This document shows, in pieces, positions 3,001 through 35,400 of a stretch of 42,693 nt of DNA. Each line of letters begins with the position of its first letter. Within the stretch, counting starts at the first letter, position 1. This stretch comes from a virus, in IMG/VR virus record IMGVR_UViG_3300036399_000410, positions 1 through 42,693 of that record; one strand, written 5' to 3'. The notes under the pieces were generated by a model. It searched no databases. It was not told the DNA's origin and saw only the letters and a program-made list of their open reading frames with translations. Made by a program: the position numbers and the translations under genes.

Positions 3001-4057
3001 TATCATTTGGAGAATTTGCATCAGGTACATCTTGGTCTGGAGTTGGTGTTGTATCAGGTCTAGCCGGTTCATCCATTGGTGGTTCTGCATTAGGTCCTGC
3101 TTCAGGTCCTGTTGGTTCTTCTGGTTTAGTATCATCAGCTTTTGGTGTCGTATCCGCTACCTTTGCTTTTGGATTATATGTTGGGTCATTATCTTGTCTA
3201 ATACTATCCCACATTGCTGCGTTTTCCATATCACCTTTTCTTTTATTTTTTTCGGTCATATGTTTTGCCCAATCAGCTTTTGCAGCTTTAGCTTCAGATG
3301 AATCCTCACCCTTTTCTTTCATTACATCTGTGAATTTATTCCTAGTATCCAATTCTTTCGATTGAACCTCATCATCACTCATTCCTTCAAAATCTTTATC
3401 GGGAGTATTATCAAAATCTTTATTTATATAATTGGTTAGCTTATCATCTTGTGCTTGTACGGAATCTTTTTCACTAGCAGATGCCTCTTTATCTTTTTGT
3501 GCCAATTTAGCACTAGCTTCTTTTTCTCTATCTAAGCGAGCTCCCATAGCAGGGTCTGCTTTTGGGTCAAACATTGCTGCTGCTTTCTTCTTCTTTTCAT
3601 CTTCAGCATCAGCTCCACCACCCTTTTCATCTTCACCCTCTTTACCCTTCTCATCTTCAGGTGCTTTAGCTTTACCATCTTTCTCCGAACCTAGTTCCTG
3701 ATTCATTGCATCTCTCTCAGGACTTCCTTCCGGTGGTAATGCCGCCTCAGCTGCCTTTCTACCTGGCGAATCTTCTGGTTGTCTTAATAAATTTCCAACA
3801 ATACCTTCTTTATCCTCACCTTTAGCATTTTTATATCTAACTTTTTTATTAAGTGCAGGATTACTAAACCCACCTTCTTCAGCTTCGTTGATACTTTTTA
3901 ATAGTTCGGACTTAATATGCCCTAAACCCATTTCGTTTAATACAATTTCCAATTCCTTTACGTGTATTGGATTTTTTGGGTTTGGCATCCCATCGTTTAC
4001 TCGATATGCCCAATCGGATACTATTTCGTTTATTAATTCAGATAAATTCATATTCAT
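1..4057 (-). CDS. Giant multidomain virion-associated protein with ParB-like domain (partial, C-terminus outside window)
   Basis: The frame is open for 1352 codons from an ATG at 4057 and runs off the left edge without a stop. The start codon shares its A with the stop of the endonuclease gene (TAATG), which implies translational coupling. Residues ~90-460 are rich in Lys, Glu, Asp and Ala, low in complexity and probably disordered or coiled. Residues ~465-705 carry GTKHG, FVGEGG and a later ARDEHL...IAGESHVD, which resembles the spaced His/Glu motifs of the EreA/ChaN superfamily; this is tentative. Around residues 935-960 lies a Cys-containing PGTNLYC...GIPR motif, followed by a ParB-like domain with DGHHRWAA at 1043-1050. 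Related ParB-type domains occur in large phage structural or injected proteins. The cellular role is unknown; an ejected or capsid-internal protein is a guess. The reading frame was checked base by base and has no break. Confidence 0.85.
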   Translation of the reverse strand, partial: MNMNLSELINEIVSDWAYRVNDGMPNPKNPIHVKELEIVLNEMGLGHIKSELLKSINEAEEGGFSNPALNKKVRYKNAKGEDKEGIVGNLLRQPEDSPGRKAAEAALPPEGSPERDAMNQELGSEKDGKAKAPEDEKGKEGEDEKGGGADAEDEKKKKAAAMFDPKADPAMGARLDREKEASAKLAQKDKEASASEKDSVQAQDDKLTNYINKDFDNTPDKDFEGMSDDEVQSKELDTRNKFTDVMKEKGEDSSEAKAAKADWAKHMTEKNKRKGDMENAAMWDSIRQDNDPTYNPKAKVADTTPKADDTKPEEPTGPEAGPNAEPPMDEPARPDTTPTPDQDVPDANSPNDTEVPPVEKIEDTKIEIQKAQNRLKALERMKQNNPEQFATPEKKAEWAKNKEILASKKQELADLESQQKFDAKKKTPTEQPSEPAKREPANDDPESKAQKFKGNKSGEEIQTMEMEGGGFVYGTKHGNTAMVDDILDDVKSKIPKERWKDIVFVGEGGATNDETGEIDFNDEMDYAAPKFKELGAGVDTWDGDDMDVHKSDSKLYQKQKEKTGLKDNQILAGNWASMVGQGEGEGLDPNDPEHTMKSKDYLDDEGKQFIQDAAKEAGLPPIENFDNPTGEKPSEENGWKGTGDRGTLYRLSFPDDNGDKPTKINDIQVAFNDARDEHLIEKNKELTAQGKIPITIAGESHVDLVDKMTRKSSDTKPEDKPTTEPTKPEETPKATKDDIKKEKPGKEAKTDSGNSLYSVGGGYYSDKPNGPAKYVRTESVIEMAFDDSLNEDVFALFEKSITGTLQNGEKITVQELPPRAVKKATQRAKAAAASSKEEPTQPTSTSTEKPAEQPKAEPKAGDFNPINADDVQKEMPKANTDTFGSEPDIPTGIEPKDLEQFNTDIDKVAKEISDAKERGEKAPNINLCDVTVPGTNLYCDDNLGIPRAEMPQFKGKPQPGTPAADMEVDKNGEVDTEPLFKKMLEDKGIKVVQTEVPSDKLKATQSELVGDKVIGMMNALENDPNHPSITAPIYVSRDGYVIDGHHRWAAITAYNAKNPDNQIPMKVQAIDMDIKEAIPMCNDFAEQQGVAAKKADANQESDIQNVTSLPEPQPEDPEEKKNWFQKQKERIQQKFKVMKEAGKQFFGRGGHKPGSVPRRSFGKALVDKIKGIPKAVKDGIVHHAVMFKDAGVAIFEAGAYGGLGTIEDPETGERFNHDDHIAVDENGKKRYEKIPQYETDSHGHIINDPETGKPMQKRHWLTGNLMNEDRPIPKEDMTDKQKELFYKSYKKEKKQIKAMVGTGKAIMITAAGAYGLSAAMGHAYTTAGQLMTSTAIELVPHTIVEGVVLGTG

Positions 4058-4659
4058 TAAAATTTGTGGTCTTCTTTTTCACATATCATTTCTAACTCAT
4101 CCCAATGAAATTTAGGTTTTTGATTTAGAAATACAAAACATTTCCATTTTTTACTTTTTTCAAAATAAATGTGTTTTTGTAAGTGCGATGGAATTGCTGC
4201 TCCAGTTGGTACTCTTTTTACAGGCGTATCAAAGAATGTTTTTATTAGTACAGTTATATTTTCAGTATCATCCCATTTACGAATTTGTTCTTCTAACAAT
4301 CTCCATTCACCTCTATTAAGGTATTGGTCTTGCATTATACAATTTAAGTAAGAAAATGTTTGTTTTAGATTCTCCATATTATCAGAAAATGTTGCAGCTG
4401 GTGCACCATGTCCTTTATCGTATATGTTTTTAGCGTAATCATCCGCATCTGATGTTTTAATATTTGGTTCTTTATAAAAATCCATAGCCCCTCTATTTAC
4501 ATTTGTAGGACGGTTTGTTGAACGATACTTAATTACTAAGGGTTGTTCTAATGATTGTGAGTATAAAACCTCAAACACATCGTTTTTAATTCTTACATTC
4601 TGTCCAAAAGAAACCAAAGAAAGGATTATAAAACTAAAAAGGATACCAATTTTCTTCAT
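4057..4659 (-). CDS. Secreted DNA/RNA non-specific endonuclease (NucA/EndA-like)
   Basis: This 200-residue protein begins with a classical signal peptide: Lys-Lys, a hydrophobic core at residues 4-17, and a likely cleavage site near SFGQ at 17-20. The catalytic motif DKGHGAPA at 81-88 matches the DRGH motif of beta-beta-alpha-metal nucleases, with His84 as general base. It is followed by N106, then NRGEW at 115-119 (Asn115 as metal ligand) and E123, as in NucA/EndA. The size and domain order fit the family. It should cleave nucleic acid outside the cytoplasm, in the periplasm or medium. An ATATTTATA promoter-like motif lies 24 nt upstream, so it is probably expressed late. Its stop overlaps the start of the giant gene. 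A secreted nuclease in a phage could degrade extracellular DNA, scavenge nucleotides or act on competing DNA; the sequence cannot say which. Confidence 0.85.
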   Translation of the reverse strand: MKKIGILFSFIILSLVSFGQNVRIKNDVFEVLYSQSLEQPLVIKYRSTNRPTNVNRGAMDFYKEPNIKTSDADDYAKNIYDKGHGAPAATFSDNMENLKQTFSYLNCIMQDQYLNRGEWRLLEEQIRKWDDTENITVLIKTFFDTPVKRVPTGAAIPSHLQKHIYFEKSKKWKCFVFLNQKPKFHWDELEMICEKEDHKF

Positions 4660-4698: not shown

Positions 4699-5985
4699 TT
4701 ATAGTTTTCCGTAATCCAAACCCCAACTAGCCTTAACAGGAAACCCACTCCCTTCAATGATTTCCTTCAATCCCCTAATTAATTGCTTATCCACATCAGT
4801 AGGAACATCAAAAAGGAACGAGTCATATGTGTATAAACAAAAGTTAATACCACTTCCCTTTATATAATCCAATATTTTTCTCATAACCTCAATGTTCATT
4901 TCAGTCTCAACGGCTTGTAATAAGTAGTTGAATACCTTTTGTGCATTTGGTTGTTCTATCCACTCTAACGGAATCTCTCTATGTGGTGTTTGTAGGAATC
5001 CTTTCTTTTGTACATCAATCCATAAGTTATCAATGTAATCAGCTACGGCATTAAAATATGGAATTGTACGGAAATCATCATCGATACCACCATAAAGTAA
5101 TTGGAACGTAATACCTTTTGATTCATCCACACTACATCCATATTGTTCGGCTAACCACTCATGCACACTGGTTGTTGGGAGTTCGAAGTTCACCAACTTA
5201 CCAATCAAACGGGGGTGATATGCGTTATAATCCATTTGTAGGAATATCCCATCCGATACGAAACATTCTCTACTACCATCCGTTTTGTTTAGGGCGGCAT
5301 AGTTCACACCACCATGTCTATTTGATGGTCTACCTGTCACCGTAAATGGATTGTATTCGGTGTACACTAAGTTATCGGATGAAAGCTGTTTGGAAGCTTG
5401 AGGCCATCTATCAATAAATTTTTTCCCATCGACACGGATTCCAAATTGTTCGATATCTGAAAGGGTAGGTATAAACACTTCATTGTACCATTTAAGTGTA
5501 GGAGTATAATGTTCTTTATGGAAGTACTTACCGAATTGTGGTTGTATTGCTTCTACAATCTTCATTAGAGGAAGGGATTGTATCAAGTCATCTCTATACC
5601 CTTTGTGAGTTAGAGTTGAAAGGAGGGGATTTAAAGGGGCTTCATAATCAATTACCTTTGCTTCCTTTCTAAAATATGCCGAATCTACATCATATAAATT
5701 TACCGAAACATTAAGAGTATGTAATATCTTCTTTTTTTGAAATATCCACTTTTGTCCGTTGGTATTGAGTACCGTCTCTATTTGCTCAATAGATAGCGAT
5801 AGAGCGTCTGTATGTTTATGTGGTAGAATGTACAATCCATCAGAACATCGTACAACTACGAGCGAAAGAGAAGTGTTTAACGGATGCTTACTATTATCTA
5901 CCCACAATGGATACCAAATAGATGCTTCCGTTTCCAGCTTTTCTTTTAGTTGATTAACTTCTTCAATAGACTCAATAATCTTCAT
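4699..5985 (-). CDS. Family-A DNA polymerase, short and divergent
   Basis: The protein is 428 residues from the ATG at 5985. An in-frame extension to 6021 exists but would cover the promoter and part of the tmRNA terminator. The palm motifs are recognisable. Motif A is MDYNAYHPR (Asp at ~251), corresponding to DYSQIELR. Motif B is KGITFQLLYGG (~290), corresponding to KxxxFGxxYG. Motif C is TYDSFLFDV (Asp388), corresponding to HDE, with His replaced by Tyr and Glu by Ser. The fingers and thumb are reduced. Residues ~15-150 may be a degenerate 3'-5' exonuclease domain (FQKKKILHTL, then a later D), without a clear set of acidic catalytic residues. It could replicate or repair phage DNA, although the altered motif C leaves activity uncertain. 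It lies directly after the tmRNA and has a host-type promoter, so it may be expressed before the structural genes. Confidence 0.8.
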   Translation of the reverse strand: MKIIESIEEVNQLKEKLETEASIWYPLWVDNSKHPLNTSLSLVVVRCSDGLYILPHKHTDALSLSIEQIETVLNTNGQKWIFQKKKILHTLNVSVNLYDVDSAYFRKEAKVIDYEAPLNPLLSTLTHKGYRDDLIQSLPLMKIVEAIQPQFGKYFHKEHYTPTLKWYNEVFIPTLSDIEQFGIRVDGKKFIDRWPQASKQLSSDNLVYTEYNPFTVTGRPSNRHGGVNYAALNKTDGSRECFVSDGIFLQMDYNAYHPRLIGKLVNFELPTTSVHEWLAEQYGCSVDESKGITFQLLYGGIDDDFRTIPYFNAVADYIDNLWIDVQKKGFLQTPHREIPLEWIEQPNAQKVFNYLLQAVETEMNIEVMRKILDYIKGSGINFCLYTYDSFLFDVPTDVDKQLIRGLKEIIEGSGFPVKASWGLDYGKL

Positions 5986-5990
5986 AAGTA

Positions 5991-6022
5991 CAAAGATACA
6001 AAAAAAATCCCAAACTACCAAA
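5991..6022 (-). promoter_or_regulatory. Bacteroidota-type promoter of the polymerase gene
   Basis: The minus strand has TTTG (6022-6019), exactly 20 nt, then TATCTTTG (5998-5991), matching the Bacteroidota -33 TTTG / -7 TAnnTTTG consensus. The spacing equals that of the tmRNA promoter. Only 5 nt separate the -7 box from the ATG at 5985, so the transcript would be leaderless or nearly so. The -33 box lies in the loop of the tmRNA terminator hairpin. Confidence 0.7.
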
Positions 6023-6036
6023 TATAGTTCGGGATT
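6000..6036 (-). terminator. Rho-independent terminator of the tmRNA
   Basis: A 12-bp stem pairs 6025-6036 with 6006-6017 (AATCCC-G-AACTA with TAGTT-T-GGGATT, one G-U pair), with a 7-nt loop. It is followed on the minus strand by a run of eight T. It starts only a few bases after the tmRNA 3' end. Confidence 0.85.
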
Positions 6037-6040
6037 TTAG

Positions 6041-6426
6041 TGGAGATGACGGGACTCGAACCCGTGTCTTACAAAGTAACCATAATACCAGCATGTCACA
6101 CGTTTAGGATAAAGTTTAATCTTATTCACTTTCCAAAATAATTGGGGCCGTATGGTTAATACAGCGATTCCACCATCCTATCAGTATTAAACAGCCGATA
6201 GGTAGAGCTGCGGTTGTTCACTTCTATTTAAATCCCACGAGTGATGCGGGAGGTGATTAGGCTGCTACAGCGTAATCGTAAGCTCCTACAAATGCCATAG
6301 CATCTTCGAAGTTCCAAGTAGATAATTCTACGTCGGTTATTGTTTTGTACAGATTTAAAGACATCTAGCACTTCTGTCTACGTGTGATACTATGTTTCTC
6401 ATTGCAATCAATTCCGTAACATCCCC
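6041..6426 (-). ncRNA. ssrA: Transfer-messenger RNA (tmRNA), phage-encoded
   Basis: tmRNA with SmpB rescues stalled ribosomes and tags the nascent peptide for proteolysis. The 5' end GGGGATG pairs with the 3' end CATCTCC (one G-U), followed by discriminator A. CCA is not encoded (the next bases are CT). The T-arm reads GGGTTCGAGTCCC. The long helix joining the tRNA-like and mRNA-like parts is present: TCACACGT pairs with ACGTGTGA and CATAGTA with TATTATG. The tag frame ends at the stop 6259-6257 and encodes GAYDYAVAA if the resume codon is GGA, or AYDYAVAA if it is GCU, which keeps the UAG context seen just before the E. coli resume codon. The C-terminal AVAA is a typical protease-recognised end. 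Downstream hairpins (CCCGC/GUGGG, CCTATC/GATAGG) fit the pseudoknot region. The length, 386 nt, is normal for one-piece tmRNA. Confidence 0.94.
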
Positions 6427-6440
6427 ATAGTTTATAAATA

Positions 6441-6472
6441 CAAATATACGAATAATAATTTAGATTACCAAA
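6441..6472 (-). promoter_or_regulatory. Bacteroidota-type promoter of the tmRNA
   Basis: The minus strand has TTTG (6472-6469), 20 nt, then TATATTTG (6448-6441), a full match to the Bacteroidota -33/-7 consensus. A start point ~5-7 nt after the -7 box would give a short leader before the mature 5' end at 6426, to be removed by RNase P. The -33 box lies inside the end of the upstream 122-residue gene (stop at 6460). Confidence 0.75.
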
Positions 6473-6828
6473 TCTTTCTTTTTTCTAAATTGAACTAAGT
6501 TTGGTAGATATGATTGTATTAATGGTATTTTATCAACACCTGTCTTTATTGATTTAAAATTACATTCTCTTATTTCTTCATCAGTTCCTTTGATTTTCCA
6601 ATCCAATGATACTGTACTATAAAATGCGTTTTCTACAAATTTACTATATCCAATATAATCTACTTCAGTTATTCTGGATTGTGTATCATTTGCTTTTTGT
6701 ATAAAATATCTTACAATATATCCTCTTTGATAATCCAAATCCGTTGGAGTTGGGATATATGGTGATATTCGCTTTTCTCTAAACTCACTTCCTATATTTG
6801 CTACTTTGTTATATCTACTTAAATCCAT
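6460..6828 (-). CDS. Conserved tail-module protein of unknown function, 122 aa
   Basis: The protein is soluble with no signal peptide or membrane segment. It has a basic C-terminal tail (QFRKKKDLVI) and a central YIVRYFIQK...DYIGYSKF segment of the sort I associate with small proteins beside baseplate genes in T4-like environmental phages; I cannot name the family. It starts 8 nt after the hub gene stop (6837), so it is very probably co-transcribed and is the last gene of the tail operon. Its 3' end carries the -33 box of the tmRNA promoter. A baseplate or tail-assembly role is inferred from position only. Confidence 0.75.
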   Translation of the reverse strand: MDLSRYNKVANIGSEFREKRISPYIPTPTDLDYQRGYIVRYFIQKANDTQSRITEVDYIGYSKFVENAFYSTVSLDWKIKGTDEEIRECNFKSIKTGVDKIPLIQSYLPNLVQFRKKKDLVI

Positions 6829-19690: not shown

Positions 19691-19710
19691 TAAAAAATAA
19701 CTATTATTTT
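19691..19710 (-). terminator. Weak AT-only hairpin at the end of the 2548-residue fibre gene
   Basis: A 7-bp AT stem (AAAATAA, loop TAG, TTATTTT) overlaps the stop codon 19706-19704 and is followed by T residues. It is weak because no G-C pair supports it, but it sits just before a new promoter-like motif. Confidence 0.4.
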
Positions 19711-22700
19711 CTATCAAATAAAGTTTTTAGCATTTCTTTGATTTCAGAAATTTCATTATTTTGTTTTTCAATAATAGTTTGTTGTTCTTTAATAGCCTCT
19801 ACTAAAAGTGGAACTAACTTATCGTAATCAATTGTTAGATAGTTCTCACCACTCTTAGAACCTTTTATTTCTTTAGTTTCTGAATCTATATCAGTATCAA
19901 ATGGTGCTAAGTGCACAATTTCAGGTAATATACTTTGAACTTCTTGAGCTGACAAACCTAATTGTACTTTGGTATCAGTATATCCTACTGAATGTGCTAG
20001 CTCATTATTTACATAGTAGAATCCATTTAATTTAGATATCTTTTCTAATGGGTTTTCAATATTACCAATTTTTGTTTTTAATCTTTCATCAGAATAGTAT
20101 GCTATAATATTTCCTTGTGCAAATATCCAATCATAACAATATATGTTGTTATTGATAATATAGTTAAATCTAGATGTTGAGTTAAAGTCACCATAATATC
20201 CAGTGTCGTGGTCATAGAAAATCGGAGAACGGATATCGTTATACACATATACACCATATGGTTGCATTGACATTCTATCTGAACCGGCATAGTATAAGTA
20301 AAGAATTGCTCCACTCATTAACCACACCCATCCTCTAGCACTATCATGCACACCAACGTTATCACCCATAGTACTCATAAAGGTATAACGAGAACCTATA
20401 CCCCAACCTTGCCAGCCGTTTCTACCACCATCGTAAGTTGTATAGTTACCATAAGGGTTTCCACCACACTCAGCTGCCCATATACCTCTACCATATGATT
20501 GGTTATACAATCCAGTACAACCATAGTTTCTCCACCATCCGTAGTTATAACCCTGGTCTATGTATATTTCATTCAAACGGTTGCCACCATTTATATCTAA
20601 ATAATATCCAGTATTATCTCTATCGTAAATAAAGTTTGTTCTTATCTCATAAAGATAAGTTCTATTTCCAGAGTAGTGGTTGATGTAAGTTTCATATCCG
20701 TTTTGGCAATCTAAGTGTAAGTTACCATTAGTTGTTACAACAGATGCAGTTCCATCGGGTCTACCATTTGAACCAACATAAAGATATGCTCCCCAAGTTG
20801 GGTTAGGTCCATGTAAAGTACCACCACGTTGTCTAATACACGAATTTGATGTACTATTAAAATCTGCATAATATCCGGTATCATCTGAATCATAGAATAC
20901 GTTTGCACGAAGGTCACCAGAACCTCCACCACCATACATAGCGAATTCTTTCCATCCAGAAACTCCACCACCCCATTTACCTCTTGCCCAATATCTATTT
21001 GCAGTTGCATCACCAGCACCTACCATCATCCAACCATAAGCCGCACCACCATCGGATGTTGCATAGTGTTGTCCCGATACGATACCTTGTGCGTGAATAT
21101 ATCCACCACCTTGAGGGTGACCTGTTCCACCACCCCAAATATCCCATCCAGCAAATCCAGCTTTCCAAGCATTATCCCAGTTTCCAGCAGATGTTCCCCA
21201 TCCAAAAGTACCTGTCCAATAGTTTGTATCACCAGTATAATCAAATCTAGGAGTAATCCAATGATGACCCCTATTCATTGCTGCATGTGTTCTATTAGTA
21301 AATCTATTTAAGTTTGATGTACCATTTGCATCTAAATACCATCCAGTATCGTGGTCATAGAAAATAGGTGACCTCATATCTGCTCTTGCCCAAATAACAG
21401 ATGCTATTGCCGCATTTGTTGTACCATTTTCTACTACTAATAATCCGTGCGTATTTAGGTAACTAGCTTGTCCACCTGCGTTTGGATGCGACCAAGATAA
21501 ACCATATAAGTTACCAAGCGATGTACCATCAACAGGCATTCTCCAAGGAGTACCCATTGAGAATATACCCTGAAAACGAACTGATGTATAAACTCCGAAT
21601 ATAGTTTGTCCGTAGTTATAATCTAAATAAATATGTTCGTTTGCATCAACTCTAATACCACCATTAGCTACTACATAATTTAATCTAGCAGTACCATTAG
21701 GGTTTACATAATACGAAGTATCATTTGAATCATAAAATATTGGTGCTCTTAATGAGTTACCGCCAGTTAAATAATCGTTGGCGTAAACAGTACCATTTGA
21801 ATACCATTCCATTGTACTATAACGAGTACCGCTGGTGTTTGTGTTATAGAAATATGTATTACCACCGGTGTTAAATCTCATATAGGCTTGTCCCTGTCCG
21901 CCATTGATTCTACTAAATCCACCAGGTCCACCACCATCGTTTTGTACGTTAAATCCAAAACCACCATCATTCCAAGTTACACCAGGTTCAGAAACCCACA
22001 TTTGTAAATAAGATGGAGTACCAGTACCCATTTCATTTCCTCTAGCAGTTAATCTAATTGTAGAGTTACCATGCCCACCTGCTACTTCAAATCTACCTCT
22101 TACATAAGAACCACCATTTAAGTCAGTATAGTATTCCGTATTATCGGAATCATAGAATATAGGTGCTCTCATAGATGATGCAGCCTGTAAGTATCCTTCT
22201 GAATATGTGTATCCAGAATAAAAATACATTCTGTACGAACCTCCTCTAGTTATTCTTAAATCGTGATTTGTAAATGAACCAACAACCGATAATCCACCAA
22301 CATGTGAGAACATACCAGTTTCAATACCTTCACTTCTAGCATAAACTCTTATAATTGAGTGAGGACCATTTGAAACGTGAAGTTGAGTACCCCATCCACC
22401 AGGATCGGACCAATCACTACCACCATCACCAACATATAAGTTTCTTAATCTAGAAGATGAGTTAAGGTCTAAACGGAATGTAGTATCTGCTGAATCATAA
22501 AATACAGGTGCTCTCCAATCGGATGTTGCTGTACCAGTACCAGTTATTACCATGCCACCAGAAAATCCAAAACGAGAATAAGTTGTACCATTGTTTCTTA
22601 ATGCCAAATGATGGTCATATCCACTTCCATATTCATAAGCCAATCCATACATATTACCCAATGGCCAGCTTTCTCCAATTGTCCAAATTACTTTGTCAGC

Positions 22701-25700
22701 AGTACCCGTAGAATTATAATCACCCATCAAACCACCTCTATCACGACTTACTAAATAGTTAGTGTAATATGAACGAGCGTACATATTAAGAGTACTATTT
22801 ACATTTAATCCAAGTAAATTAGATGTTGAAGCAGGGTCTGTGTAATATCCGGTATTATTTGAATCATAGAATATTGGTGCTCTCATATCACCATCTGCCT
22901 GCATTTGACCTGCTCTATTAAAATAGAATCTATCACCAATTCCATTAAAATGGAAAATTAATGCTTCATATCCATTCCAACCATCATTTACCAACCAAGG
23001 GTAATATGAATTGCTATATGCAGTATTGCTTAAACCAATTAAATATCTATTATTGTGAGATAATTGTAAAGCGTAAGTATTTCCACCATTAAAGTTACCA
23101 CTATTACCGACTTTTAATGCCAATAATCTAGATTGATTATCACCATCTACATAATATGCACTATTATTAGAATCGTAATAAATTGGAGAATACATTGCAC
23201 TTCCCGCTTGAACATTAGTACCAGCATAGAATGATACTGGTGTTCTTAAATTACGAAGGTCACCTGATATATTTGAATATGAATCGGATTCTATTGCTAC
23301 TGAATATCCTTCAGCAACATCCATTATTCCACTATAATATGAACCATTTTGTATTTTTCTTAAAACAACTTGTCCATAAGACCAAGATGATGAACCATTA
23401 CCAATTACGATACAATATCTACCATCTTTAACACCAACTCTTACAGGTTTATCAGTTTGTCCAATTACTTCTGCATTTATGTTATACCACGCACCATTCC
23501 AGTTATGTCCACCAACTCTTACAGTTGATGCAGCATTTCCATTATATTCGTAGATATCAATTACAGCATGAATCATACCATAGTTACCAGTTCCGCCAGG
23601 GAATTTAATAACTACTGCTCCAGTTGCACCCGTTGCTCCCCAAACTGCGTAAGGTCTACCTACTAAGTTATCTTGCTTTATACCACCTGCTACTCTTAAA
23701 GATGTTGCTGTTGTGGCTGGGTTTAAGAAAAATGCGGTATTGTCTTGGTCATAGAATATTGGAGAACGCATTGAACCATCTGAAAACATATTACCAGATG
23801 TATCTATACCAGCTACTGTTCTACCTGCCGCTTCTGAATAAAAATGGAAACTTTCCGTACCAACTAATTGTGATGATGTTCTTTTACCTACATACCAACT
23901 GCTACCAGATCCTCCAATATAGCGAACCATTGCTTCATAGCCATTACCCGGATTAATAGTAAGATATTTATGAGCTGCGCCTGTTATATTAATAGGAGTG
24001 TTGTTTCCTCCAATCATACCAATATAAGAAACATCATTGATACTATTACCATTCAAATACATCGTACCATACAACCAGTTTGTACCAGTTGAATAAATAC
24101 CAGATGGATGATATGATGCGTTTCCAGTTCCTGCTACGTTACTATTTCCCTGATAAGAATATGCTTGTAATGTATTTAAGTTTGAGTTACCAGCTCCATT
24201 TATAAAATATGCTGTATTATCCGAATCATAAAATATTGGTGCTCTAAAATCTACGTTAGCAGTAATATTTCCAGAACTATTAATATTCATTCTTAAACTT
24301 CCACCAGTAGCATGAGTAATTGCATTATGTGTATAAAAATCTATTTGAGTTGCTGGGTTAGCTTCATATATATTTCCTCCAATATAAATTTGGTTTGCGG
24401 CTGCACTATTATATGCTCCTATAATGGTTGTTCCTTGTGCTTGTGATGTTGCATTATAGTGAGTACCAGTTAAAGTTGAAAATTTATTACTACCTTCACC
24501 AGCAGGTCCCATTAGGATATTACCACCACTACTATTACCAGCAGCGGTTAATCTTATTTTATTAAATGATGGTGAATCTGAAGTTCTTACCGCCTGATTT
24601 AAATAATCTGAAAATTGATAACCATCCCATAAATCTGCATTAAGATTAGTAACAACAGTTGTTGATGTTACTGCCAATGGAGATGTACCAGTTGCTACAG
24701 TTGATGTTATTCTATTGAATGATGGTGAATCAGATGTACGGACATTTTGGTTCATTAAATAAACCTCAGTTGCTCCTTGCCCAGTATCAATTGTACCACT
24801 AAGAACTACATTACCACCTACTTCTAATGTATTATCAGCATACCATCTGTCCGTTGATTCGTTCCAATAAAATGATACGGTGGATGCATTACCTCTCTTA
24901 ACTTCTATACCAGCATTTTCAGTTGGTGCAGTTGATGCTCCAATATCTGCATTAAGTGTAATAATATTATCACCTATGTTAAGAGTTGTTGTATTAATAT
25001 ATGTTGTTGTACCACTTACAGTAAGGTCACCACTAATTGTAGCGTTACCAGTTACTGCTAATGTAGTACCATCAAATCTTAAATTTGCTTCAACGGTTGC
25101 GTTTGGTGCAGTTCCGTTTAATGTGATTACACCATTATCAGTTGTACCAGTTAATGATAGTAACCCAGATGTGCCAGATGTACCACGTGTTCCTGATGTA
25201 CCGCTCGTGCCAGAAGTTCCACTAGTCCCAGACGTACCACCACTACCAAAGGTTCCTGATGTACCAGAAGTTCCTGATGTGCCACCACTTCCAGAAGTTC
25301 CTGATGTGCCACTACTTCCAGAAGTTCCTGATGTACCTCTAGTTCCACTTGTGCCAGAAGTTCCCGATGAACCACTTGCTCCAGAAGTTCCTGATGTACC
25401 AGAAGTTCCCGATGAACCATTTACTCCACTTGTACCAGAAGTTCCTGATGTGCCACGAGTTCCAGAAGTTCCTGATGTGCCACTACTTCCAGCAGAACCA
25501 CTTATTCCAGAAGTTCCTGATGTTCCTGATGTGCCAGACGAACCACTTATTCCGCTAGTCCCACTACTACCACTTATTCCAGAAGTTCCTGATGTTCCCG
25601 ATGAACCGGCACTTCCACTTACACCACTTGTACCAGAAGTTCCCGATGTACCATTTGAGCCCGAAGAACCTTGTGCCCCAGAAGTTCCTGATGTACCATT

Positions 25701-27350
25701 TGAACCTGAAGAACCTTGTGCTCCAGAAGTTCCAGAAGTTCCTGATGTACCATTTGTACCAGAAGAACCTTGTGCTCCAGAAGTTCCTGATGTGCCTCTA
25801 GTTCCAGAAGTTCCCGATGAACCACCAGTACCACTTACTCCACTCGTCCCACTACTTCCAGAAGTTCCTGATGTGCCACTACTTCCAGAAGTTCCTGATG
25901 AACCCGATGTGCCAGAAGTTCCCGATGAACCACTTCCTCCGCCAGCTCCAGTTATACCAGAAGTTCCTGATGTACCACTTGTGCCAGAAGTTCCCGATGT
26001 GCCACGAGTTCCAGAAGTTCCTGATGTACCGCTTGTACCTGAACTACCACCAGCACCACCAATACCGCTTGTACCAGAAGTTCCTGATGTGCCGCTTGTA
26101 CCAGAAGTTCCTGATGAACCACTTACTCCGGAACTACCACTACTACCACCAGCACCACTTACTCCAGAAGTTCCTGATGTTCCAGAAGTTCCACTACTAC
26201 CATTTGAACCCGATGTGCCAGAAGTTCCCGATGAACCACTTGCTCCACTTGTACCACTACTTCCACTAATTCCACTTGTACCAGCTGAACCAGTAGAACC
26301 TGAAGTTCCAGCCGAACCAGAAGTTCCTGATGTACCTCCACTACCAGAAGTTCCTGATGTGCCAGAAGTTCCCGATGTACCACGAGTTCCAGAAGTTCCT
26401 GATGAACCTGATGTGCCAGAAGTTCCAGCCGAACCAGATGTTCCTGATGAACCAGAAGTTCCCGATGTGCCAGAAGTACCACTACTTCCACTTGTCCCAC
26501 TACTTCCAGAAGTTCCTGATGAACCAGACGTTCCTGATGAACCTGATGTCCCACTACTTCCAGAAGTTCCTGATGAACCACTTGTACCACTACTTCCACT
26601 TGTGCCGCTTGTACCGCTTGTGCCAGACGTTCCTGATGTGCCGCTTGTACCTGATGTACCAGACGTTCCAGAAGTTGCTGCTGCAAATCTTCTACTAATT
26701 CTTCCTGTTGTTGTATTAAGAACTAATACTTCGTTTGTTGTATTATCAGTTGGTATTGTATCGCCAGTAACAAACATTGAACCACTAACTGATAAACTAC
26801 CAGTTATTTGTTGGGTATCGTTTGATGCATCACCAAATTTGTTACTTCCACTTGCGTAGATTATAGAAGATGAGATGTATGTTGCAAATAATTCCGTTGT
26901 ATTTATTTTTCCAGCTACATTTAAATCTCCTTTGAATATACCACTACCAGTTACAATTAAAAAATCATTAATCGTAACTCCTGTATTAATTCTTACTCCT
27001 TGATTTGGAGATATTTGTGCAGTTACAGATCCTGATTTTATTCTATTAATATCACCAATTGAATCTGCTGATATATTAAATAATCCACTACCATCTCCTC
27101 TAAATAATGATGCCGTTACAAATGATGAAACACTAAGTGAACCAGTTATTTGAGTATCCGATTTTAATTTCAACGGATTACTTCCAAATGAATCTATTTC
27201 ATCCGTTTGTATTTTGGAAGCACTAAAATTTCCAACCACATCTACCGATTGTGATGAAAAACTAGCTATTCTACTTCCACTTACAAATAAAGAAATTGTA
27301 TCTTTATTTTGTTGATTTAAACCATTAGGATTGTTACCCAAATACTCCAT
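19704..27350 (-). CDS. Giant tail fibre, 2548 aa, with Gly-X-Y repeats and C-terminal S74 chaperone
   Basis: Residues 1-222 consist of fibre modules ([20 protein letters not shown] and SSSIIYASGSNKFGD) shared with the 3491-residue fibre. Residues ~226-729 are uninterrupted Gly-Thr-Ser/Gly-Ser-Ser triplets. Residues ~730-1040 are beta-rich. Residues ~1040-2390 hold 11 repeats with the motif RAPIFYDSDNTAYY or close variants. The C-terminus is an intramolecular chaperone of the peptidase S74 family: SDERLK at ~2420 gives the Ser-Lys catalytic pair, followed by LGLSAQEVQSILPEIV, a conserved YDKLVPLLVEAIKEQ helix and a coiled coil. In that family the chaperone trimerises the fibre and then cuts itself off just before the catalytic serine. 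The gene is the last of the fibre operon, 11 nt after the 110-residue gene. The many aromatic and Gly-rich loops between repeats (for example GWGTSAGNWDNAW) could bind host glycans (inference). Confidence 0.93.
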   Translation of the reverse strand: MEYLGNNPNGLNQQNKDTISLFVSGSRIASFSSQSVDVVGNFSASKIQTDEIDSFGSNPLKLKSDTQITGSLSVSSFVTASLFRGDGSGLFNISADSIGDINRIKSGSVTAQISPNQGVRINTGVTINDFLIVTGSGIFKGDLNVAGKINTTELFATYISSSIIYASGSNKFGDASNDTQQITGSLSVSGSMFVTGDTIPTDNTTNEVLVLNTTTGRISRRFAAATSGTSGTSGTSGTSGTSGTSGTSGTSGSSGTSGSSGTSGSSGTSGSSGTSGSSGTSGSSGTSGSSGTSGTSGTSGSSGTSGSAGTSGTSGSSGTSGTRGTSGTSGTSGTSGSGGTSGTSGSAGTSGSTGSAGTSGISGSSGTSGASGSSGTSGTSGSNGSSGTSGTSGTSGVSGAGGSSGSSGVSGSSGTSGTSGTSGTSGTSGIGGAGGSSGTSGTSGTSGTRGTSGTSGTSGTSGTSGITGAGGGSGSSGTSGTSGSSGTSGSSGTSGTSGSSGTSGVSGTGGSSGTSGTRGTSGTSGAQGSSGTNGTSGTSGTSGAQGSSGSNGTSGTSGAQGSSGSNGTSGTSGTSGVSGSAGSSGTSGTSGISGSSGTSGISGSSGTSGTSGTSGISGSAGSSGTSGTSGTRGTSGTSGTSGVNGSSGTSGTSGTSGASGSSGTSGTSGTRGTSGTSGSSGTSGTSGSGGTSGTSGTSGTFGSGGTSGTSGTSGTSGTSGTRGTSGTSGLLSLTGTTDNGVITLNGTAPNATVEANLRFDGTTLAVTGNATISGDLTVSGTTTYINTTTLNIGDNIITLNADIGASTAPTENAGIEVKRGNASTVSFYWNESTDRWYADNTLEVGGNVVLSGTIDTGQGATEVYLMNQNVRTSDSPSFNRITSTVATGTSPLAVTSTTVVTNLNADLWDGYQFSDYLNQAVRTSDSPSFNKIRLTAAGNSSGGNILMGPAGEGSNKFSTLTGTHYNATSQAQGTTIIGAYNSAAANQIYIGGNIYEANPATQIDFYTHNAITHATGGSLRMNINSSGNITANVDFRAPIFYDSDNTAYFINGAGNSNLNTLQAYSYQGNSNVAGTGNASYHPSGIYSTGTNWLYGTMYLNGNSINDVSYIGMIGGNNTPINITGAAHKYLTINPGNGYEAMVRYIGGSGSSWYVGKRTSSQLVGTESFHFYSEAAGRTVAGIDTSGNMFSDGSMRSPIFYDQDNTAFFLNPATTATSLRVAGGIKQDNLVGRPYAVWGATGATGAVVIKFPGGTGNYGMIHAVIDIYEYNGNAASTVRVGGHNWNGAWYNINAEVIGQTDKPVRVGVKDGRYCIVIGNGSSSWSYGQVVLRKIQNGSYYSGIMDVAEGYSVAIESDSYSNISGDLRNLRTPVSFYAGTNVQAGSAMYSPIYYDSNNSAYYVDGDNQSRLLALKVGNSGNFNGGNTYALQLSHNNRYLIGLSNTAYSNSYYPWLVNDGWNGYEALIFHFNGIGDRFYFNRAGQMQADGDMRAPIFYDSNNTGYYTDPASTSNLLGLNVNSTLNMYARSYYTNYLVSRDRGGLMGDYNSTGTADKVIWTIGESWPLGNMYGLAYEYGSGYDHHLALRNNGTTYSRFGFSGGMVITGTGTATSDWRAPVFYDSADTTFRLDLNSSSRLRNLYVGDGGSDWSDPGGWGTQLHVSNGPHSIIRVYARSEGIETGMFSHVGGLSVVGSFTNHDLRITRGGSYRMYFYSGYTYSEGYLQAASSMRAPIFYDSDNTEYYTDLNGGSYVRGRFEVAGGHGNSTIRLTARGNEMGTGTPSYLQMWVSEPGVTWNDGGFGFNVQNDGGGPGGFSRINGGQGQAYMRFNTGGNTYFYNTNTSGTRYSTMEWYSNGTVYANDYLTGGNSLRAPIFYDSNDTSYYVNPNGTARLNYVVANGGIRVDANEHIYLDYNYGQTIFGVYTSVRFQGIFSMGTPWRMPVDGTSLGNLYGLSWSHPNAGGQASYLNTHGLLVVENGTTNAAIASVIWARADMRSPIFYDHDTGWYLDANGTSNLNRFTNRTHAAMNRGHHWITPRFDYTGDTNYWTGTFGWGTSAGNWDNAWKAGFAGWDIWGGGTGHPQGGGYIHAQGIVSGQHYATSDGGAAYGWMMVGAGDATANRYWARGKWGGGVSGWKEFAMYGGGGSGDLRANVFYDSDDTGYYADFNSTSNSCIRQRGGTLHGPNPTWGAYLYVGSNGRPDGTASVVTTNGNLHLDCQNGYETYINHYSGNRTYLYEIRTNFIYDRDNTGYYLDINGGNRLNEIYIDQGYNYGWWRNYGCTGLYNQSYGRGIWAAECGGNPYGNYTTYDGGRNGWQGWGIGSRYTFMSTMGDNVGVHDSARGWVWLMSGAILYLYYAGSDRMSMQPYGVYVYNDIRSPIFYDHDTGYYGDFNSTSRFNYIINNNIYCYDWIFAQGNIIAYYSDERLKTKIGNIENPLEKISKLNGFYYVNNELAHSVGYTDTKVQLGLSAQEVQSILPEIVHLAPFDTDIDSETKEIKGSKSGENYLTIDYDKLVPLLVEAIKEQQTIIEKQNNEISEIKEMLKTLFDRK
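20190..24240 (-). repeat. Eleven RAPIFYDSDNT repeats in the 2548-residue fibre
   Basis: Eleven copies were counted by eye, each with an R-S/A-PIFYD core followed by S/H/Q-D-N/D-T and YY-D plus Asn- or Ser-rich sequence. Spacing varies from ~60 to ~160 residues because of inserted loops of different lengths. The last copy is just before the S74 domain. Confidence 0.85.
25164..26675 (-). repeat. Gly-X-Y (GTS/GSS) repeat in the 2548-residue fibre, ~500 residues
   Basis: Glycine is at every third position, with Thr-Ser, Ser-Ser, Ala-Ser or occasional Val-, Ile-, Asn- or Arg-containing pairs. No proline is present. The DNA has an 18-nt tendency because GGAACTTCT alternates with GGCACATCG-like synonymous codons. 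The opposite strand is therefore also open and reads as Val-Pro repeats, which are not a gene. Confidence 0.93.
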
Positions 27351-29401: not shown

Positions 29402-32400
29402 TTAACTTAAATTTTTACCGGCTACAAATCCATAATATGTAGTACCACCATTAAATGTGTAGAATACTAATACATCAACACCAGACGATGTTAGAATTGG
29501 TGCACTTCCACCAGCCCAATCAATACTAGCAGGCCATGTAATTGAATATGCCCCAGCATTTACAACTACTAAAGTAAATCCAAATGCGTTTGATGCAGGT
29601 GGGTTAGTAAACGTTATTGTTGATGTACCATTAAATTGTCTTCTAAAGTTGTTTGCTGTTGATAAATCTAAAGTTACACTACCACCAGTTGATAAATCAG
29701 AATAAGTTTCTCTGAATGTTGTTGATGCAATATAATTTGTTGAACTTATATATCCACTAGCTCCTATATTTCCAGTTAAGCTTATTGTAGTACCATCAAA
29801 TGTTAAATTAGGTTCGGCCTGAACGCCTATTGGTGAATCTATATATGTAAGTACTGCATTATTAGTTGTACCTGTTATTTGCAATCCAGATGTACCAGAA
29901 GTTCCGGAACTGAATCCTACTGCCGATGTACCACTACTACCACTTATTCCAGAAGTTCCAGAAGTAAATCCAGGTGCATTTGTTCCAGAAGTTCCAGAAG
30001 AACCAGCTGCTCCAGTAGAACCATTAGCTCCACTAGTACCACTACTTCCAAAGAATGTACCATCCAATCCAGAAGTTCCTGATGTCCCAGACGTTCCAGA
30101 AGTAGATGTTAAGCCGGATGTACCAGCCGAACCACTTGTACCAGAAGTACCACTACTACCAAAGAATGTTCCATCAAATCCAGATGTACCACTAGTTCCA
30201 GAAGTTCCGTTTGACCCACTTATACCGCTTGTGCCAGAAGTTCCTGATGTTCCACTCGTACCACTACTTCCAAATAAAGTTCCATCTAAACCAGAAGTTC
30301 CCGATGTACCAGAAGTTCCTGATGAACCACTTACTCCAGAAGTTCCTGAAGTTCCTGATGTACCAGAAGTTCCACTGCTACCAAAGAATGTTCCATCGAA
30401 TCCAGAAGTTCCTGATGTACCAGACGTTCCTGATGAACCACTTACTCCACTTGTGCCAGAAGTACCGCTTGTTCCCGATGTACCACTACTACCAAAGAAT
30501 GTACCATCAAATCCAGATGTACCGCTTGTACCGCTTGTACCAGAAGTTCCATTAGTTCCGTTTTCTCCACTTGTGCCAGAAGTTCCCGAAGTACCAGATG
30601 TACCTGATGAACCGAAGAATGTACCATCCAATCCGCTTGTACCAGAAGTTCCGCTTGTACCAGAAGTTCCGCTTTCTCCAGATGTGCCAGACGTTCCTGA
30701 TATTCCAGAAGTTCCACTACTTCCAAACATTGTACCATCCAAACCAGAAGTTCCAGATGTTCCATCCGTGCCACTTATACCACTTGTACCGCTTGTACCA
30801 TTTTCACCAGAAGTTCCAGAAGTTCCAGAAGTTCCCGATGAACCAAAGAATGTACCATCTTGTCCAGAAGTTCCCGATGTACCGCTTGTACCAGAAGTTC
30901 CTGAAGTACCGGATGTTCCTGATGTGCCACTTTCTCCGCTTGTACCAGATGAACCAAAGAATGTTCCATCTAAACCGCTTGTACCAGAAGTTCCATCTGT
31001 ACCGCTGATTCCACTTGTACCATTTGTACCATTCTCTCCAGAAGTTCCTGATGAACCACTTGCTCCAGAAGTTCCTGATGACCCAAAGAATGTTCCATCT
31101 AAACCACTTGTACCAGAAGTTCCCGATGTACCATCACTTCCGTTTATACCACTTGTGCCAGATGTTCCCGATGTACCACTACTTCCACTAGCTCCAGAAG
31201 TTCCTGATGAACCGAAGAATGTACCATCTTGTCCAGAAGTTCCTGATGTGCCATCTATTCCAGATGTACCATCACTTCCGTTTACACCACTCGTACCAGA
31301 AGTACCACTACTTCCACTTTCTCCAGAAGTTCCTGATGAGCCAAAATATGTTCCGTCTAAACCAGATGTGCCAGATGTTCCCGATGTACCACTTACTCCA
31401 GAAGTTCCTGATGTACCATCACTTCCAGAAGTTCCTGATGTGCCATCACTACCAGAAGTTCCCGATGTGCCAGAAGTTCCTTCAGAACCATTTGTACCTG
31501 AAGTTCCTGATGTGCCACTTGTACCATTACTTCCCGATGTACCACTTGTACCATCACTTCCAGAAGTTCCCGATGTGCCATCTATACCAGATGTACCCGA
31601 AGTTCCTTCAGAACCATTTGTACCAGAAGTTCCAGCCGAACCATTTGTGCCAGAAGTTCCTGAAGTTCCAGATGTACCATCTGAACCACTTGTACCGCTT
31701 GTGCCAGATGTGCCCGAAGTTCCATCACTACCACTTATACCAGAAGTTCCTGATGTGCCAGAAGTTCCCGATGTACCATCTAATCCACTTGTTCCAGAAG
31801 TTCCTGATGTGCCACTTGTCCCAGAAGTTCCTTCAGAACCATTAGTACCACTAGTGCCGCTTGTGCCACTACTACCACTTGTACCACTACTACCACTTGT
31901 ACCTTCGGTTCCCGATGTACCAGAAGTTCCTGATGTGCCAGAAGTTCCTGATGTGCCACTACTACCACTCGTACCGCTTGTACCAGAAGTTCCCGATGAA
32001 CCTTCACTACCAGAAGTTCCCGATGTGCCAGAAGTTCCTGATGTTCCAGAAGTTCCGCTTGTGCCACTACTTCCAGATGTACCATCACTACCTGATGTTC
32101 CCGATGTGCCAGAAGTTCCAGATGAACCAGAAGTTCCTGATGAACCAGTTGAGCCTGAAGTGCCAGAAGTTCCTGAAGAACCTGAAGTACCACTACTTCC
32201 AGCTTCACCATCCGAACCACTTGTACCAGAAGTTCCTGATGAACCAGTTGAGCCTGAAGTGCCAGAAGTTCCTGAAGAACCTGAAGTACCAGAAGTTCCT
32301 GATGTACCAGCCGAACCAGATTCACCAGCAGTACCCGAAGTGCCCGCAGTTCCACTACTACCAGACGTACCGCTTGTGCCAGAAGTTCCACTACTACCAT

Positions 32401-35400
32401 TTGAACCAGATGTGCCAGAAGTTCCTGATGTACCAGAAGTTCCCGATGTGCCAGCAGTTCCTGCCGAACCTGTACTACCATTACTTCCACTTGTACCAGA
32501 AGTTCCTGATGTGCCACTTGTTCCTGATGTTCCACTACTTCCAGAAGTTCCTGATGTGCCAGAACTTCCCGATGTTCCTGATGTGCCAGAACTTCCCGAT
32601 GTGCCAGAAGTTCCTGATGTACCTCTAGTTCCAGAAGTTCCCGATGTGCCAGATGACCCAGAAGTTCCTGATGTACCGCTTGTACCATCCACTCCACTCG
32701 TACCAGAAGTTCCTGATGTACCACTCGTACCGCTTGTGCCAGAAGTTCCTGATGTACCGCTTGTGCCGCTTGTACCAGAAGTTCCTGATGTGCCAGAAGT
32801 TCCTGAAGAACCTTCACTACCAGAGGTTCCCGATGTTCCACTACTTCCGCTTGTACCAGATGAACCTTCACTACCAGAAGTTCCTGATGTACCAGACGTA
32901 CCAGAACTTCCACTCTCTCCGCTTGTACCAGAAGTTCCTGATGTACCTGATGTGCCATCCGTACCACTTACTCCAGAAGTTCCTGAAGTACCAGAAGAAC
33001 CAACTGCAGCTGCTATATTTCTATATGCTAATTTTTTTGATATAGTATCCCATATTACTACTTGCTCATAAGATGCGGATGGTAAATTTCCTAACAATAC
33101 ACTACCACTAACTCCCAAACTTCCACTAACAGTTAAGTTTGCGTTAATACTACTATCTTTGTTTACCTGTAAGAATGATGCTGTATTTACTCCTTCCGCA
33201 TTTAGAGCGTAAAGAGCGTATGATGCGGTAAATGCTAATGAAGCAGTACCAACCAACATCGAAGAAGTTTGTGAACTAAGTAAATCACCAGTACCAGTAC
33301 CACCAGTACCACCGCCACCTAATATTCTTACTAATACACCATCTGAACCAGACGATATTACATCAACACCAGAACCAGTAAAATGAATTTTTCCTACTTG
33401 TGCTTTTACTAATGAACTCGTTTGGTATATAAATAATTCAGTACCACCACCTACACCTGCGTTTAATGCGTAAGATGCGGTTAATGCGTAAGAAGAACTT
33501 ACTGCACTAAATACAGCCATTGATGATGTTTGTGAATTTCTTACAAAATTTTCTAAATCACCCAATGCTGCCAATGCCCCACTATCAAATCCAACAATAC
33601 TTTCAGCTATACCAGCTCTAATTGCGTATGATGATGATAAAACATTACCAACTACTCTATCACCAGTTATTGTTCCATTGATTAATGAACCACCACTACC
33701 AATTACAACATGCCCACTAGTCAATCCACTAAATACAATTTGAATAGTATCATCATCAATTGATTTTATTGTGCCAGGTAAAATTTGGTCTTCCGAACCA
33801 GTAGCATAAACCTGAACCATTGGGTATCTGATTCCTAAATTATGTACAATAGTTAAATTACTTACATTATTAAATGATACAGTTTCAGTTAATGAAGTTT
33901 CAGGTTGTGGAATAAAATATCCTCTATTCTCATCAAATCTTAAAATATCATACTGCGCCGATGCAGTTGGTCCTACTCCTTGGAAATTATATGTACCTAA
34001 GAATGAACCACTTACTAATGGAGCAAATACTCTATTTGAAGCAGTAATATCAGTTGCAGTTAAATCATTACCAACATAAAGATTACCCCAAATTGATGAA
34101 GATGTATTTACTACAAATCCTTTATCAGGAGAAATTGATGCGGTATATGAACCACTCTTTAATATAAATGTTTCAAATGATAAGTTAGCAATATTGATGT
34201 TAGTTAATCCACTACCATCTCCAATGAAAGCAGAACCAGAAGAAAGTATAACGTTTCCACCAGTAACAAATAATCCACCACTAACACTTAAATTACCAGA
34301 CACAAATGTCCTAGTACCAATTTCCAAACCTTTGTTTGGAGATATTACCGCCTGAACTGAACCTGATATAATTCTATCTAATTTAAGGTCTTGTAATGCG
34401 TTTGCAGGAATGTTAAATAATCCACCACCATCACCTATATAAAGTGCTGCAGTTATTGGTACGTTTACATCTAATTTTTCTGGGTCAATAATAGCAACAC
34501 CAGAACCAGAATTAATTTTAAATAATTCAAGTCCTTCAATTGATTCCGGTGGGATATTAAATAATCCACTACCATCACCATAGTAAACAGATGCGGTAAT
34601 TGAACCACTAATTGCTACTGATGATGTAAATTGAGATTTATATGAACCAGAAGATGGTGCTGTAATTACTTGGAATAGTTCACCACTTGCCACCGATGCA
34701 GTTGCTGAACCACTTGCTATCAATGGTGCGGCTGATGCTTGTACGTTTGTTATAAATCTACCATCACCAAAAAGAAATCCTCTTGCTGTTAAATCATCTG
34801 CTCTTAATGAACCACTAACATCAATTGAACCAGTAAATCTAGAACCAATAGCCGAACCAGTTACAGCAGTTGTTACTATAAATGTATCTCCACTTTGAAC
34901 GGATGCCGTTGCAGAACCACTACCAATGAATGGTGCAGCTGCTGCTTGTACGTTTGTAATATATCTACCATCACCAACAAAGAATTGAGATTGTACGCTA
35001 CCACTAACATCCACACTACCCGTTATACGAGTACCAATTTGATAATCAAGCCCAGAACCAGTTGCTCCAGTAGTTACTATAAATGTATCACCACTTGTTA
35101 CAGAAGCTGTTGCAGAACCACTTGCTATTAATGGAGATGCTGCCGCTTGTACATTTGTTATAAATCTACCATCACCAATAAAAAATCCATCATTTGATAA
35201 TCGTACACTTCCACTTACTGAAATACTTCCACTAAATTGTGAACCACTATCTTGCGATTGAACTCTAAATCCAAAATTAGGAGATACTGATGCAGTTACC
35301 GAACCGGATTTAATTTCCGTTGATACTAATGCATCTTCCGTTAATGCTGAACGAGGAATGTTTCTAAGATATGTTCCATCCGCAAATATAAATGATGATG

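Follow-up and report, generated by a model that had tools for sequence, protein, structure and literature searches.

Transfer-messenger RNA (tmRNA) tags are usually seen as short degrons, in which the exact N-terminal sequence has little weight, and their commonest length is 10 amino acids (PMC11915505). The locus considered here lies on the minus strand of a 42,693-base virus record (the window, that is, the whole stretch of DNA analysed), which carries contractile-tail genes for sheath, tube, baseplate and fibres. It raises the question of whether a phage tmRNA can bear a tag of a different kind, and what such a tag would do to the chains that receive it.

A conserved phage tmRNA gene with its own promoter and terminator

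On the minus strand, ARAGORN places a tmRNA at 6040-6426, and the Rfam model RF00023 matches 6038-6426 of the same strand over its full length with 73.8 bits (gathering score 47; E 5.6e-27), which is the sole Rfam hit in the window. CCA is absent from the gene, and A73 is followed by CUA (Table 1). A search of IMG/VR with the neighbouring polymerase gene gave 79 loci, nearly all of which have an adjoining tmRNA where the contig extends far enough, and a tag-alignment search of viral contigs gave 293 stretches, 80 of which were kept; the comparison set comprises 138 phage loci, equal to 77 distinct tmRNAs. The G3:U70 pair and A73 are kept at every one of these loci. Double changes occur in 12 of the 27 given pairs (covariation score 0.304, against 0.125 for shuffled alignments). 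The acceptor stem, the T-stem and the tag-end hairpin all co-vary, the first two strongly, and a U-A to A-U double change in the hairpin swaps GCU and GCA, alanine being retained in both. As 138 viral loci carry the tmRNA with compensatory changes, it is not a product of chance. The pairs of candidate pseudoknot 1 were named and counted across clades, pseudoknots being outside the model of RNAalifold, and are formed in 55-73% of cells; the PK2-4 region differs from clade to clade. By blastn the window tmRNA has no match among 50,697 phage records, and no named phage was found with a tag of this type. A bS21 gene is present in two of five large relatives, of 274 and 134 kb (L082 1408-1674; L081).

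Table 1. Features of the tmRNA locus, in window coordinates
Feature	Position	Strand	Remarks
One-piece tmRNA gene	6041..6426	-	386 nt, G1 to discriminator A73; complete
Acceptor stem, 5' strand GGGGAUG	6420..6426	-	G3:U70 alanine identity pair; compensatory acceptor types
Acceptor stem, 3' strand CAUCUCC	6042..6048	-	A73 at 6041; 99.1% of cells paired across loci
T-arm ACGGG-UUCGAGU-CCCGU	6049..6065	-	100% of cells paired; double changes in 5/5 pairs
Candidate pseudoknot 1, GACA/UGUC with GUGC/GUAC	6347..6378	-	Readable in the window sequence
Resume-codon determinant AAUAACC	6335..6341	-	A at -4; A86 rule (PMC2481249)
Tag frame, 25 codons, DVELSTWNFEDAMAFVGAYDYAVAA	6257..6334	-	Resume GAC 6334-6332; stop UAA 6259-6257
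Conserved N-terminal tag module DVELSTWNFEDAMAFVGAY	6278..6334	-	Not in host tags
C-terminal tag end DYAVAA	6260..6277	-	Only host-tag-like part; hosts end ALAA/AMAA/RLAA
Tag-end hairpin GAUUAcGCU..AGCcUAAUC	6255..6277	-	Spans last tag codons and stop; 99.5% of cells paired
Bacteroidota-type promoter TTG-N20-TATATTTG	6441..6471	-	TTG 6471-6469; TATATTTG 6448-6441
Intrinsic terminator, 15-bp stem then T-run	5996..6038	-	Hairpin 6038-6004, -18.3 kcal/mol, z -6.3
Short family-A DNA polymerase, downstream neighbour	4699..6018	-	PHROG 17, E 1.4e-13
122-aa protein, upstream neighbour	6460..6828	-	No family match

The gene is framed by signals of its own. The -7 box of the promoter starts 22 nt upstream of the mature tmRNA end, and the motif TTTGG..TATATTTR recurs in 45 of 66 distinct upstream regions of relatives, where 0.01 would be expected after shuffling. 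The terminator hairpin starts 2 nt downstream of A73, and terminator-like hairpins are found in 42 of 61 distinct downstream regions, with none in the shuffled ones. The preliminary description of this DNA had read a one-piece tmRNA with acceptor pairing, T-arm, promoter and terminator in a phage of a likely Bacteroidota host. This picture holds: gene and arms are borne out by ARAGORN, by the homologues with their compensatory changes and by the covariance model it had proposed as a check, which matches above its gathering score; promoter and terminator recur in the flanks of relatives, and the type of promoter, together with the relatives, backs the host assignment.

The polymerase downstream has a relative in Flavobacterium phage immuto that carries the name DNA polymerase family A. 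It covers the C-terminal part of PHROG 17 only, so that the exonuclease part is elsewhere or missing. In other clades the tmRNA gene follows a tRNA or different genes. Two genes downstream of the tmRNA lies a DNA/RNA non-specific endonuclease (PF01223, E 1.1e-20; 4057-4659). The window also contains giant open reading frames at 29402-39877 (3,491 aa) and 19704-27350 (2,548 aa), the latter with matches to tail-fibre and collagen-like families.

Integration at ssrA is common (also PMC12656738), and a bacterial tmRNA could in principle have entered the contig through misassembly or through a prophage inserted in that gene, in which case the same RNA would be expected in a bacterial chromosome. 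Phage genes nevertheless flank the tmRNA on both sides, most relatives place it beside the same polymerase gene, and scores of independent viral contigs carry the locus. A profile of the phage tag finds none of 395 Bacteroidota genomes at E 0.001, and in the positive control it recovers 18 of 18 phage contigs with E < 1e-13, once per contig; a genome scan based on the aligned tags yielded 47 stretches that fit the pattern, none of them a confirmed relative. Misassembly of the window tmRNA is excluded, and a bacterial origin by either of these routes has next to no probability.

The tag frame and selection on its N-terminal part

An A four bases before the resume codon is the known determinant of the tmRNA frame (A86 in E. 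coli; PMC2481249). The frame given by this rule (AAUAAnn-G) is kept in 72 of the 77 distinct tmRNAs, and the same frame is open in the 138 loci. The tag of the window is read as DVELSTWNFEDAMAFVGAYDYAVAA because this frame is shared by the relatives and has the A at -4. Tags of relatives have the consensus DVELSTWTFEDAMAFVGADYAVAA and a length of 23-26 aa, amount to 30 distinct peptides, and resume at GAC, GCA or GAT after AAUAAnn. The tag that ARAGORN proposes for the window, EQPQLYLSAV, was rejected: it is in another frame and begins only at position 208, a long way from the one that is conserved.

The preliminary description was right about the AVAA ending of the tag and wrong about its start: with GAYDYAVAA or AYDYAVAA, read from GGA or GCU, it saw only the last third of the tag and missed 14-17 conserved residues upstream, which are what makes the tag unusual. 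A short tag of this kind, with the upstream stretch as a spacer, would at 9 aa equal host tags in length, and an A at -4 also precedes GCU (UAGGA GCU). The GGAGCU context, however, is not kept in the relatives (for example ATGGAGTCTTTCGAT and ATTGGGGCTTCTGAG), whereas AAUAAnn-G is, and the codons upstream of GGAGCU show coding selection, all of which makes the short reading very improbable.

This selection is apparent from the ratio of non-synonymous to synonymous change. Across 34 distinct 72-nt frames, pN/pS for the whole tag is 0.33 in frame, and 1.43 and 2.37 in the other frames. For the first 15 codons it is 0.32 in frame, against 1.12 and 2.20 out of frame and a mean of 1.16 for column shuffles, none of which (0 of 200) gave a value as low. 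Indels in the tag alignment are whole codons. The N-terminal part of the tag is under amino-acid selection. As to its nature, a test for an amphipathic helix in the module performs no better than shuffles (P 0.5), and a comparison of the tag with the Protein Data Bank gives no match up to E 10. One variant, DEKSTFTFEDAMSFVGADYAVSA (L508), has the module unchanged and the end AVSA, which would be likely to weaken a ClpX degron.

Bacteroidota hosts have tmRNAs of their own, as a match is found in all 118 sampled genomes. Ninety fetched regions gave 88 ARAGORN calls and 84 clear tags, every one of which is 9-10 aa long (46 of 9 aa and 38 of 10 aa), with the endings ALAA, AMAA, RLAA, RMAA, SLAA and AYAA. 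The host RNAs (RF00023) resemble those of the phages in the tRNA-like domain with G3:U70, the T-arm, the long helix, the A at -4, the stop codon inside a hairpin and the AA-COOH end. In contrast to the host tags of 9-10 aa, mostly ending in ALAA, AMAA or RLAA, phage tags measure 23-26 aa, carry the conserved N-terminal module and end mainly in AVAA; the window tag, with 25 aa and AVAA, lies outside the host type. The difference from Bacteroidota tags that the preliminary description had noted is thus found. The 14-17 extra residues look as if inserted between a host-like start and the host-like DYAVAA end.

Possible fates of the tagged chains

The reading that we favour, and consider likely, is that the RNA is a functional phage tmRNA in which the long tag module serves as a recognition element, so that rescued chains are treated otherwise than those bearing a host tag. 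The label on rescued proteins is probably the virus's own. In the mechanism proposed, the tmRNA would be expressed during infection from its own host-type promoter, and host enzymes would trim it and add CCA. We infer that it then receives alanine and binds the SmpB of the host; the charged tmRNA would enter ribosomes stalled on broken or stopless mRNA, where the 25-codon tag plus the first alanine would be added instead of the 9-10 residues of the host. Rescue is most likely to take place while mRNAs are being cut in infected cells, and the released chains would receive the phage-specific label. Within the label, the module VELSTWTFEDAMAFVGA most likely acts as the recognition element, and the -AVAA end would probably remain recognisable to host proteases that read protein tails, ClpXP for example, though perhaps to a lesser degree than -ALAA. 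From ssrA variants, -AVAA should leave some ClpX recognition. The part in proteolysis or in rescue that the preliminary description had supposed is plausible.

The partners that such a pathway would use were sought in the phages themselves. A search for smpB, suggested at the outset, found SmpB encoded in none of 21 relatives' contigs of 80-274 kb, although these contigs are possibly incomplete, so that SmpB could be missed; host SmpB must therefore serve, if the tmRNA works. Lon is found in none of 14 large contigs. ClpP occurs in four of the 14, 3.7 kb from the tmRNA, and neither protease is present in the window's own clade. Since ClpP is confined to four contigs of one sister clade, it is not a general reader of the tag. 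In these sister phages (G419, G415, G417 and G420; L381 1149-3714 and 13362-13904), genes for an Hsp20-like protein, GroES, GroEL and ClpP lie upstream of the tmRNA, the first three some 14-17 kb away, and form a small protein-quality-control set. Of the 14 large contigs, 8 encode GroEL, but these do not include the large relatives closest to the window.

A broader proposal is that in Bacteroidota phages the tag has acquired a phage-specific address on repeated occasions, and that a dedicated adaptor, protease or sorting factor, of host or phage, reads the module, so that the virus controls the fate of every rescued chain in an infected cell; we put this forward only tentatively. At the other extreme, the phage tmRNA may be a plain spare copy, which only adds rescue capacity as host and phage mRNAs are cut, with a long tag that has no special reader and an -AVAA end that ClpXP reads. 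The AVAA end does look like a weak ssrA degron, and phage tmRNAs have been proposed to keep translation going (PMC9004378). A functionless tag should drift, however, and the amino acids encoded by the first 15 codons are under selection; a module of this kind is found in none of the hosts sampled; and in E. coli, tagging itself is little affected by changes to the tag codons (PMC2481249). We regard the spare copy as unlikely.

The module could also act on its own account, as a decoy or inhibitor that binds and occupies a protease, adaptor or defence factor of the host, the tagged products shielding phage proteins. Protease inhibitors are known from phages, and conservation of the module, together with its difference from host tags, would suit such a role, but no target is known and large amounts of tag would be required, which leaves it decidedly improbable. 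Recognition of the module on rescued chains thus stays our preferred account.

Other long tags and known systems

Long tags are not restricted to the relatives of the window. Among 88 viral tmRNAs sampled by means of a 3'-end pattern, 15 have an ARAGORN tag call of at least 20 aa, three of these being from the window's family and at least two probably miscalls. A second long-tag family, NAQIEANMNKVFSLL..VAVAA, to which one of the other calls belongs, is represented by 57 IMG/VR contigs, with a core pN/pS of 0.015, and by 29 records of cultured Flavobacterium psychrophilum phages, including Fpv20, with the core NAQVEANMNMAFSLIREDVAVAA. The tmRNA of Fpv20 (NC_031912, about 84.5-84.9 kb; L651 1378-1792) is unannotated and missed by ARAGORN, with an Rfam score of 58.2 bits; read from UAAUU-GGA, its tag would be GNTNNSVVSLEDNAQVEANMNMAFSLIREDVAVAA, of about 35 codons. 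The two families are alike in the long tag with a conserved N-terminal module and in belonging to Bacteroidota phages, the -VAVAA end of the second recalling the -AVAA of the first, but differ in the module itself and in the phages that carry it. Because this second conserved long tag is unrelated to the first, extended tags recur in Bacteroidota phages. Two unrelated phage groups thus keep long tags that are conserved at the protein level, even as the remainder of the RNA drifts, which offers a testable case for viral reprogramming of rescue: viruses may re-programme ribosome rescue, beyond merely supplying it. The presence of the second, unannotated family in cultured Flavobacterium phages makes experiments possible now. 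As tag callers misread several long-tag genes, the class is probably undercounted.

LR756508.1, a huge phage of 484 kb whose sheath and polymerase are related, has a full tmRNA at 92434-92880 (L392 535-981), with a 36-codon frame, GVNNADYESAGFTAEDFAQMDGESLYHGSERKPAAV, that ends in PAAV and not in xLAA. The same genome encodes at 414804-414915 (L393 505-616) a 112-nt RNA that matches the tmRNA tRNA-like domain only (58.2 bits, G3:U70), much like the form reduced to this domain that is reported for phage DS6A and may titrate SmpB. Further viral tmRNAs, some of them permuted (two-piece), have called tags of 24-31 aa (L541, L545, L560, L497, L564, L563, L491 and L489), and the tag of mycobacteriophage Bxz1 is also long. 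Phages may have evolved long tags on many occasions.

Phage-borne tmRNA genes as such are already known, in the mycobacteriophage Bxz1/Wildcat group, Bacillus phage G, Melnitz and huge phages. A tmRNA is present in 402 of 18,146 phage genomes (PMC9004378), phage tmRNAs are listed (PMC4131195), and tmRNAs are described in huge phages, some of which also carry SmpB, unlike the relatives' contigs of the window (PMC7162821). No description of a conserved extended tag in phages was met in the open-access literature searched, as far as its available parts go, and what is new here is the conserved long tag. Bacteroidetes lake phages of 293-331 kb (PMC9723584) share bS21, a large genome and the type of host with the large relatives, a likeness by these features only, the main text of that paper making no mention of tmRNA. 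Among bacteria, Mesoplasma florum has an ssrA tag of unusual length that is read by Lon (PMC8138137). The M. florum tag has its own Lon, in contrast to the phage contigs, and the likeness drawn here is one of tag length; as in the phages, that length departs from the usual, which provides a precedent for a separate protease.
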